Shown: one piece after another, positions 1,379-38,093 of the stretch | Layout: each line of letters starts with the position of its first letter | How positions within the stretch are numbered: position 1 is the first letter of the stretch | NCBI RefSeq assembly: GCF_024346075.1 | Contig: NZ_JAGQEK010000004.1 | Span: 1-38,093, forward strand | Direction of reading: 5' to 3' | Length of the DNA stretch: 38,093 nt | DNA from: Synechococcus sp. Cruz CV12-2-Slac-r | GTDB taxonomy: Bacteria > Cyanobacteriota > Cyanobacteriia > PCC-6307 > Cyanobiaceae | Notes under the pieces: model-generated | What the model was told of the DNA's origin: nothing | Databases searched by the model: none | Seen by the model: only the letters and a program-made list of their open reading frames with translations | Translations under genes and position numbers: made by a program

Positions 1379-2554
<1,176 letters not shown>

Positions 2555-2633
2555 TTAACTATAGGAACTGCCCTGCTCGGCTTCAGTTGTATCCCTTTCC
2601 TCGGGATCATTCGGTTAGGAAGAAAACACAGTT

Positions 2634-2662
2634 ATTGTATTTAACGTTGCAGCTCATGCCAA
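2634..2662 (-). promoter_or_regulatory. Candidate sigma70-type promoter for petH
   Basis: Read on the minus strand, TTGGCA (plus-strand 2657-2662) is followed after exactly 17 bp by TACAAT (2634-2639). Each hexamer matches the -35 or -10 consensus at five of six positions. Transcription would start near 2627, giving a leader of about 90 nt before the petH ATG at 2536. The -35 element lies about 18 bp from the start of the divergent gene at 2680, so the two genes share this 143-bp region. I saw no GTA-N8-TAC site for NtcA in it. The prediction rests on consensus match only. Confidence 0.55.
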
Positions 2663-2679
2663 CAGGCCGCTATTAAATC

Positions 2680-3219
2680 TTGCAGCCCCCTCCTCTACTT
2701 ACGCTTCCTTCCGAGCCCATCGAGCAGGAAATTGAACGCCTGCCCTCGGCTACTCGCCGCCTTGCTGCTCAGCTCAGGTTGCCCCTAGCTGAGGAGGCTG
2801 TGTGGCAAGTGCTTACAGACTATGAGAGCCTTCCCACCTTTATTCCAAATTTGGTTAGTTCCAGGCTGTTGAGCCGCGATGGTTCTTTCGTGAAGGTGGA
2901 GCAGGTGGGAAGCCAGAAATTTGTAGGTCTGAGCTTTTCAGCAAGCGTTCGCCTCGAATTGCAGGAGCGCTGCGCTGAAGGAATTCTTAGTTTTAGGATG
3001 GTTTCGGGCGATTTTCGCCGTTTTGAAGGGGCATGGACAGTGGTTAAAACCTCTGATGGGGTGAGATTGCGCTACGAATTACTTGTTCAGGCTTGCATTG
3101 GTATGCCAATTGCCTTGATAGAGCAAAGATTGCGGGAAGACTTGGCTACAAATTTGCGATGCGTTGCCCTTGAGGCCTTGCGTAGAGCTCAGGCAGTGAA
3201 ACTTGCGGAAATTGTTTAA
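2680..3219 (+). CDS. SRPBCC (START/polyketide cyclase-like) family protein
   Basis: A 179-residue soluble protein with the pattern of the SRPBCC/Coq10-like helix-grip fold: after a charged N-terminus comes the motif AEEAVWQVLTDYESLPTFIP (about residues 37-56), then alternating beta strands, and a long C-terminal helix (about 142-170). Such proteins bind hydrophobic ligands; the ligand here cannot be told. The start is TTG at 2680. An in-frame stop lies at 2674-2676, and the nearby ATG at 2656 is in a frame that stops after six codons, so TTG is the first usable start. It is divergent from petH. Many cyanobacteria have a similar uncharacterised protein. The fold assignment is reasonable; function is unknown. 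Confidence 0.75.
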   Translation: MQPPPLLTLPSEPIEQEIERLPSATRRLAAQLRLPLAEEAVWQVLTDYESLPTFIPNLVSSRLLSRDGSFVKVEQVGSQKFVGLSFSASVRLELQERCAEGILSFRMVSGDFRRFEGAWTVVKTSDGVRLRYELLVQACIGMPIALIEQRLREDLATNLRCVALEALRRAQAVKLAEIV

Positions 3220-3340
3220 CTGAAGATTTAGCTAAAATATAATGGTGTATTAATTAACATCAATATTTTTAGGTGCTATTTGATATCCAAGTTGAAGTTT
3301 TTTGGCGCGCGGCCATCTCAATTTTGTGCCAATTAAATGA
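3220..3340. other. AT-rich gap between SRPBCC gene and tRNA-Glu
   Basis: A 121-bp AT-rich spacer. It contains a perfect plus-strand TATAAT at 3238-3243 with only a weak -35-like TTTAAC 17 bp upstream. No open frame of note follows. I found no convincing terminator; the TTGGC and GCCAA arms near 3302-3334 enclose a long loop and lack a T-run on the correct side. Confidence 0.4.
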
Positions 3341-35596: not shown

Positions 35597-36522
35597 GCGG
35601 CGTGATAACTACTACGCACTAATGGACCACTACGAACTTGGCTAAAACCTAGATCTTTGGCAATAATCTCAAGCTCTTTATATTCTTCAAGGCTGCAATA
35701 ACGCTCCACGGGAATATGGGCAAGGGAAGGGCGTAGATATTGACCGATAGTGACCCTTGCGCAATTAACCCGCCGCAATGCTTGCAATGCGGCAATCACT
35801 TCATCATTTGTTTCCCCTAGGCCCAGCATTAAGCCACTTTTGGTAGGAATATCAGGGGCAAGTTCAGCGCTGGTTGCCAATAATCCTAAAGATCTTTCCC
35901 AGGTGGCTCCACGGCGCACCTCCCCTTGCAGCCGATAAACTGTTTCTAAATTATGGTTAAAACACACTGGTTTTGCATCTAATACCTGTTGCAACCTTTG
36001 CCGTTGTCTTTTTAAAGACTCATTGAAATCTTTATGGCCACCCCAGAAATCGGGGGTGAGAACTTCAATTGCAATTTCAGGCATTCTACGCCGAATTGCT
36101 GTGATTGTATTTGTAAATAATCCTGCACCATGATCATCTAAATCATCTCTAGCAACAGCAGTGAGAACAACGTATTTAAGTTGTAAAACCTCTACTGCCT
36201 CAGCAACGCGCTCTGCTTCTTTGAGATCTACTGGTTTAGGGGCGCTGCCTTTTTCTACTTGGCAAAATGCACAACTGCGGGTGCAGATTGGCCCCCCTAA
36301 TAAAAAAGTAGCTGTGCCTGCTGCATAACATTCAGCGCGATTTGGGCAGCGGCCCTCCTCGCAAATCGTATGCAGCCGTTGCTGTTTTACCACCGCTTGT
36401 ACGGCTTCTAATTGGGAGGCATTACCAATCGGTCGTTGTAGCCAGCTCGGTAAGCGTTGCTTTGGTGGTATCGCGCTATAGCGGCTTAGTTTTTGTTTTT
36501 CCATATTGGTTATTTCATTCAA
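35593..36522 (-). CDS. lipA: Lipoyl synthase (radical SAM)
   Basis: Inserts two sulfurs into protein-bound octanoyl groups of dehydrogenase complexes and GcvH. The 309-residue protein has both iron-sulfur cluster motifs: [12 protein letters not shown] (C54, C59, C65) for the auxiliary cluster and CTRSCAFC (C80, C84, C87) for the radical-SAM cluster. The conserved C-terminal RSSYHA provides the serine ligand. ATG at 36522 overlaps recR by 8 bp; an in-frame ATG at 36504 is also possible. Cyanobacteria often carry two lipA copies; only one is seen here. Confidence 0.96.
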
Positions 36523-37114
36523 AGGTTCTTCTACCCTCTAGCGCCCTTGCCAGAGTGATCTCATCGGCAAATTCCAATTCGCTGCCCATCGGAAGGCCAT
36601 AGGCGATGCGAGTTACCTTGCAAAAAGGCCGCAGTAGGCGGGCAAGATAAAGGCTTGTGGTGTCGCCTTCCACGCTTGGGGTGAGAGCAAGGATCACCTC
36701 CTGCACCACTTCTGGATCGAGTCGCTTTATTAAAGCTTGAATCAATAGTGTTTCCGGGCCAACGCCATCCATCGGCGAAATTAAGCCACCTAATACGTGG
36801 TAGTTGCCTTTGAATTCCCTGGTGCGCTCAATGGCCAGAAGATCGCGGGAATCTGCAACTACGCAAATTATCCCGATATTGCGTTCTTGATTTACACAAA
36901 TATTGCAATGGCTCTCGGCGGAAAGGTGGCCGCAACGTAGGCATTGGCCCACCAGTTGGCGTGCCGCCAGCAATGCCTCAGCAAATGCTTGGCTTTGCTC
37001 TTCTGGTTGGCGCAATAAATAAAGGGCCAATCTTTGAGCGCTGCGGGGCCCAATACCAGGCAGCCGCTCGAACTGCTCAATCAGCCGAGCCAGGGGGCGG
37101 GTGAAGGCAGACAG
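36515..37114 (-). CDS. recR: Recombination protein RecR, start codon non-canonical or lost
   Basis: Works with RecO/RecF to load RecA at gaps. It has the zinc-binding cysteines [16 protein letters not shown], the Toprim core [16 protein letters not shown], the [19 protein letters not shown] segment and [15 protein letters not shown]. The conserved N-terminus [20 protein letters not shown] with the helix-hairpin-helix is encoded in frame upstream of TTG 37030. Between the in-frame TGA at 37133-37135 and that TTG there is no ATG, GTG or TTG. I extend the gene to CTG at 37114, which gives 199 residues, the normal RecR size; ATC at 37132 is the other candidate. Starting at TTG 37030 would remove the helix-hairpin-helix. 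The 3' end overlaps lipA by 8 bp. Confidence 0.85.
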
Positions 37115-37192
37115 TGCTTTAAAACAATTGATTCAAATCTAGGCAGGCCGCGGCGCAAGAATGGCAGCATCATGCTGTTGGTTGGCTCTCCC

Positions 37193-37750
37193 ATGAAGGT
37201 TTCGGCTTTGTTTCGGGGGATCCCCCGCCTGATGTGCGTGCTGCTGTTGGTGTTGCTGGTGGGTTGTTCTGCAGCAGCAGCTGGCTTAAATCGGTATAGC
37301 AGTTCCGATGGGCGCTACGCCTTCCTTTATCCCACCGGCTGGATTCGGGTAGCGATCAGTGATGGCCCTGAGGTGGTTTTCCACGACCTAATCAACAGCG
37401 ATGAAACCCTTAGTTTGGTAATTGCACCGGTTGATCCAGATAAACGCCTTGAGGATTTAGGTAGCGCAGTGGCGGTGGGAGAAAAACTTGGCCGCACCGT
37501 TATTGCCCCTGCCGGCAGCGGCCGTGAGGCGGATTTAGTGGAAGCAAGCGAACGGGCCGACCAGGGCCGCACCTTCTACGACCTGGAATACAAAGTGCAC
37601 CTGGCCGATCGCGATCGCCATGAATTTGCCACGGTGGTTGCTGATAAAGGGAAGCTCTACACCCTTGCTGCCAGCACAAATGAGGCTCGCTGGGAAAGGG
37701 TTTCAGCGATGTTTCGCAGTGTTGTTACCTCCTTCACGCTGAACTATTGA
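37193..37750 (+). CDS. CyanoP, PsbP-like photosystem II lipoprotein
   Basis: A 185-residue lipoprotein. The N-terminus has basic residues, a hydrophobic core (CVLLLVLLVG) and a lipobox LVGC, so it should be lipid-anchored on the thylakoid lumen side. The mature part has the PsbP-domain start GLNRYSSSDGRYAFLYPTGW and the closing strands FATVVADKGKLYTLAASTNEARW. CyanoP assists early photosystem II assembly. ATG at 37193 gives a normal n-region; ATG at 37172 would add seven residues. It is divergent from recR, about 79 bp from the CTG at 37114. Confidence 0.9.
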   Translation: MKVSALFRGIPRLMCVLLLVLLVGCSAAAAGLNRYSSSDGRYAFLYPTGWIRVAISDGPEVVFHDLINSDETLSLVIAPVDPDKRLEDLGSAVAVGEKLGRTVIAPAGSGREADLVEASERADQGRTFYDLEYKVHLADRDRHEFATVVADKGKLYTLAASTNEARWERVSAMFRSVVTSFTLNY

Positions 37751-38080
37751 TACCCGATCTACTGGTGGTGGGAGCTGGCCTGGCGGGTGGCTTGTTAGCG
37801 CTGGAAGCTGCTGAACGCGGCGCCAAGGTATGCATTATTTCAACGGCGCCCATGGCTACCCCCATCAGTTATGGGGGGGTGCAGCTATCAGCGCTTGAAC
37901 AATGGCAGCGCCTTGAAAAGCGCCATGGATCTTTGGGTTTGGAGCCAGCTGAGCTTTTGCTCTATTGGCTGGAAGATCAAAAACCAAACATTCCCCCAGG
38001 GGCCCAGCGCTTGGAGCCAAGCCAATGGCGCGGCCTGGAACCGCTGCTGGTGGATGCCCCCCTAGGCGGTGTGGTGGCCA
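37747..38080 (+). CDS. FAD-dependent oxidoreductase, 5' part only
   Basis: The first 111 codons of a flavoprotein, cut by the end of the window. The Rossmann FAD-binding motif is LLVVGAGLAGGLLALEAAERG (about residues 5-25), followed by a strand ending VCIIS. The next region (SYGGVQLSALEQWQRLEK) does not let me choose between families such as FAD-dependent dehydrogenases or oxidases. The start is TTG at 37747, overlapping the CyanoP stop by 4 bp (TTGA). The window's last 13 bases are probably adapter, so I end the real sequence at 38080. Confidence 0.7.
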
Positions 38081-38093
38081 AGATCGGAAGAGC
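38081..38093 (+). other. Illumina adapter remnant at the sequence end
   Basis: The final 13 bases are AGATCGGAAGAGC, identical to the common start of Illumina TruSeq adapters. A chance match of 13 bases placed exactly at the terminus is very unlikely, so this is untrimmed adapter and not genomic DNA. It also shows that the window ends at a contig end. Confidence 0.93.

Follow-up and report, generated by a model that had tools for sequence, protein, structure and literature searches.

Contamination of contig ends by the Illumina universal adapter in microbial genome databases has been reported by Moeller et al. (2024, BMC Genomics; PMC11536531), and adapter remnants at contig ends are thus an already described phenomenon. 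In that report, AGATCGGAAGAG(C) was found at contig 3′ ends in outward orientation, in some cases with the contig stopping on the final adapter base, and those authors trimmed 450 bases from such ends. The contig end analyzed here resembles these cases in position and orientation and, like them, is consistent with adapter-bearing branches breaking contigs. It differs in that only two contigs of the assembly are affected, each by exactly 13 bases and without R1- or R2-specific continuation. Moreover, the genome is that of a freshwater-type cyanobacterium, and the databases screened in the earlier work included none from freshwater (PMC11536531).

The window, that is, the whole stretch of 38,093 bp under analysis, is the entire contig C172; the assembly that it comes from is freshwater-Synechococcus-like and fragmented, with 1.91 Mb spread over 237 contigs. 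C172 is itself 38,093 bp long, and the window therefore stops where the assembled contig stops, not at a boundary imposed by the scan. The features discussed below are as follows, with Synechococcus lacustris Tous (hereafter Tous) as the relative used for comparison.

37190..37750, + strand: PsbP-family protein gene adjoining the truncated gene, context only (Pfam PsbP, E = 8.2e-54).
37747..38080, + strand: truncated FAD-dependent oxidoreductase gene, genomic part, 111 whole codons plus one base (Pfam FAD_binding_2, E = 9.3e-9).
38080..38091, + strand: artefactual codons AAG ATC GGA AGA (K I G R), in which 38080 is the sole genomic base (from translation; Tous reads MPYAR...).
38081..38093, + strand: Illumina TruSeq-type adapter prefix AGATCGGAAGAGC, non-genomic (exact match flush with the contig 3′ end; Tous agrees at 2/13 bases).
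C20:5049-5061 of 5061, + strand: second adapter remnant (13/13 match up to the final base of C20; contig C39, which overlaps C20, contradicts it).

The sequence AGATCGGAAGAGC is the prefix common to both TruSeq-type adapters, whose continuations then read ACAC... and GTCG..., respectively. The adapter sequences used for comparison were taken from general knowledge; the common prefix and both continuations are also given in PMC11536531. Positions 38081-38093 of the forward strand match this prefix at 13/13 bases, facing outward, with the last base of the match being the last base of the contig. C172 ends at the final base common to the R1 and R2 adapters, and no adapter-specific continuation is present in C172 itself. 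This is the single exact copy in the window; the closest other match there differs at two positions and lies within chance expectation. An exact 13-mer would arise by chance with a probability of 1.5e-8 at one given end; for the 474 contig ends of the assembly taken together, this becomes about 7e-6. The original prediction had taken the last 13 bases for adapter sequence, and this identification is borne out by where these bases lie and which way they face, by another flush copy within the assembly, by the departure of Tous at exactly 38081 and by a class-wide pattern. We regard it as virtually certain that the terminal 13 bases of C172 are an Illumina adapter remnant, an ordinary artefact.

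The counterpart locus in Tous lies on NZ_PXVC01000018.1 (30,043 bp; G003:C90) and has the gene order of the window: recR, named by its translated sequence and not by a family search, followed by the PsbP-family gene and the FAD-dependent oxidoreductase gene. Over 37747-38080, the DNA identity between the two is 97.3%. The last mismatch before the junction falls at 38015, and the 65 bases of 38016-38080 are 100% identical; the match then stops at 38081, with 2/13 bases agreeing over 38081-38093, and the Tous-like continuation beyond the 38080 junction reads TGCCCTACGCC... A relative carrying the same 13-mer at this place had been named as an observation that would count against an adapter; Tous is without it, and the adapter reading withstands this check. 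Since they are identical in Tous, bases 38016-38080 are genuine sequence, although a minor or variant strain may be their source.

The earlier claim that the final codons of the oxidoreductase are artefactual is likewise confirmed by the comparison with Tous. Residues 112-115 of the fragment read KIGR where Tous has MPYA, and the Tous gene continues to 372 aa; this full-length homologue matches Pfam DAO with E = 8.5e-15. The codon at 38080-38082 and everything after it are therefore false. The reading frame of the fragment stays open through the 13 adapter bases. Neither DNA nor protein searches located the missing part of this gene anywhere else in the assembly, and it thus probably falls in an assembly gap. 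In addition, a near search of the terminal 1.5 kb against phage records and a protein search of the oxidoreductase fragment against viral contigs each gave no match.

Exact copies of the 13-mer in the assembly number two, at the ends of C172 and C20, and both are forward, outward-facing and flush with the last base of their contig. With uniform composition, 0.057 exact copies are expected in the whole assembly over both strands, and the probability that two random positions are both flush and outward is about 1.5e-8; the reversed control pattern has no exact copy in the assembly. The end of C20 can be compared with another contig of the same assembly, as C20:4564-5048 overlaps C39:1-485 (485 bases) at 96%. 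In this overlap the first 114 bases are identical and mismatches occur afterwards, with identity then about 95%. C39 reads GCTTAGCAGGGG... into the genome exactly where C20 turns into AGATCGGAAGAGC. The end of C20 would fit a branch of the assembly graph that represents a strain variant and dies in an adapter-bearing read. As a separate observation, the 485-base overlap at 96% points to a strain mixture in the assembly despite its low stated contamination (0.31).

Less exact matches in the assembly behave as chance would have it. There is one copy with one mismatch, which is internal (C229:589-601), against one for the reversed control, and the ten-base adapter prefix has three further copies against two for the control. 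Among the sampled contigs (121 ends of 63 contigs, of 237), shorter adapter prefixes occur at chance frequency, the longest being 4 bases, the two 13-base cases aside. A point against the adapter explanation is that no more than 2/237 contigs carry a remnant; either trimming worked in most cases or read-through seldom happened.

The same pattern is seen across the class. In a sample of 291 genomes of the class, comprising the source genome and 290 others, the 13-mer is present in 23/291. The 290 other genomes contain 49 exact matches, 42 of which, in 15 genomes, lie at most about 110 bases from a contig end and face outward. The remaining 7 matches are internal, in 7 genomes, as compared with 8 for the reversed-pattern control in the same genomes. 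Several of the terminal matches in other genomes extend into the TruSeq read-1 (ACACGTCTGAACTCCAGTCA) or read-2 (GTCGTGTAG...) continuation. Contigs ending at exactly 13 adapter bases are C172 and C20 and also G261:C286, G309:C76 and G301:C350.

Based on these findings, we propose a plausible route by which the remnant arose. First, a library insert ending at base 38080 would have been shorter than the read, leading to read-through into the ligated adapter. Left untrimmed, the adapter could then have been built into the assembly as extra contig sequence, forming a graph branch beyond the genome. The stretch common to the two adapters is precisely AGATCGGAAGAGC; a de Bruijn graph made from the reads of both mates would fork where they diverge, and the contig would end after base 13. 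The contigs whose adapter portion is exactly 13 bases fit such a fork after the shared prefix. The first A of the adapter motif matches the base that A-tailing adds before ligation; Tous has T at this position.

The sequence immediately before the adapter calls for separate consideration. The identity shared with Tous amounts to 75% over 36001-36980 and to about 75% across the 17 kb preceding the end. Over 36981-38080, aligned to about 2240-3334 of the Tous contig, it rises in patches to 90%, 84%, 96%, 83% and 97%. The background between the two genomes, estimated from sampled 300-bp windows of the source genome, has a mean of 77% and a 99th percentile of 91%, and the patchwork identity over 36981-38080 is well outside this sampled background. 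One reading, which we put just short of an even chance, is that recombination with an S. lacustris-like lineage has made this last ~1.1 kb (the PsbP/FAD-oxidoreductase region) a true mosaic, as opposed to an assembly chimera; if so, exchange of homologous DNA among related freshwater picocyanobacteria would come as no surprise. A second reading, which we consider tentative and somewhat on the doubtful side, is that about 36981-38080 represents a chimeric or minor-strain branch that was joined by the metagenomic assembler and ended in an adapter-bearing read; it would come in addition to the adapter explanation and is not an alternative to it. The jump from 75% to a patchy 83–97% identity with Tous, above background, is what such a branch could produce, and the overlap of C20 with C39 is in keeping with a branch from a strain variant that runs out in adapter; however, the patchy identity is also compatible with genuine homologous recombination among lineages, the gene order is the same as in Tous, and no parallel contig for the last 2 kb of the window exists in the assembly. 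As to the earlier suggestion of thin read support just ahead of the adapter, the bases there are genuine sequence but may stem from a strain other than the main one.

The remaining possibility, that the 13 bases are real chromosomal sequence equal to the adapter prefix by coincidence, is exceedingly improbable: chance internal exact copies do occur in 7/291 genomes of the class and the frame does stay open across the 13-mer, but a coincidence at the end of C172 has a probability of about 1.5e-8, both copies in the assembly are flush and outward with none elsewhere, Tous departs at precisely 38081, directly behind a run of 65 matching bases, and C39 contradicts the 13-mer at the end of C20. We rejected a genomic origin on the strength of the Tous locus, the flush copy on C20 and the control across the class.

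The significance of the adapter remnant is one of data hygiene only. The 13 bases should be trimmed from C172 and C20, and KIGR should be removed from the end of the terminal protein before deposition. Because the similarity of the last ~1.1 kb to Tous is unusual and patchy, caution should reach beyond the 13 bases; the few hundred bases preceding the adapter need care in strain or recombination analyses, and trimming of 450 bases as in Moeller et al. (PMC11536531) would be a sensible precaution for the end of C172. The presence of a terminal copy in 15/290 other sampled genomes indicates that the problem persists in species-representative genomes. The genomes with terminal adapter include G309, G301, G201, G245 and eleven more, with 13 copies in G309 alone.
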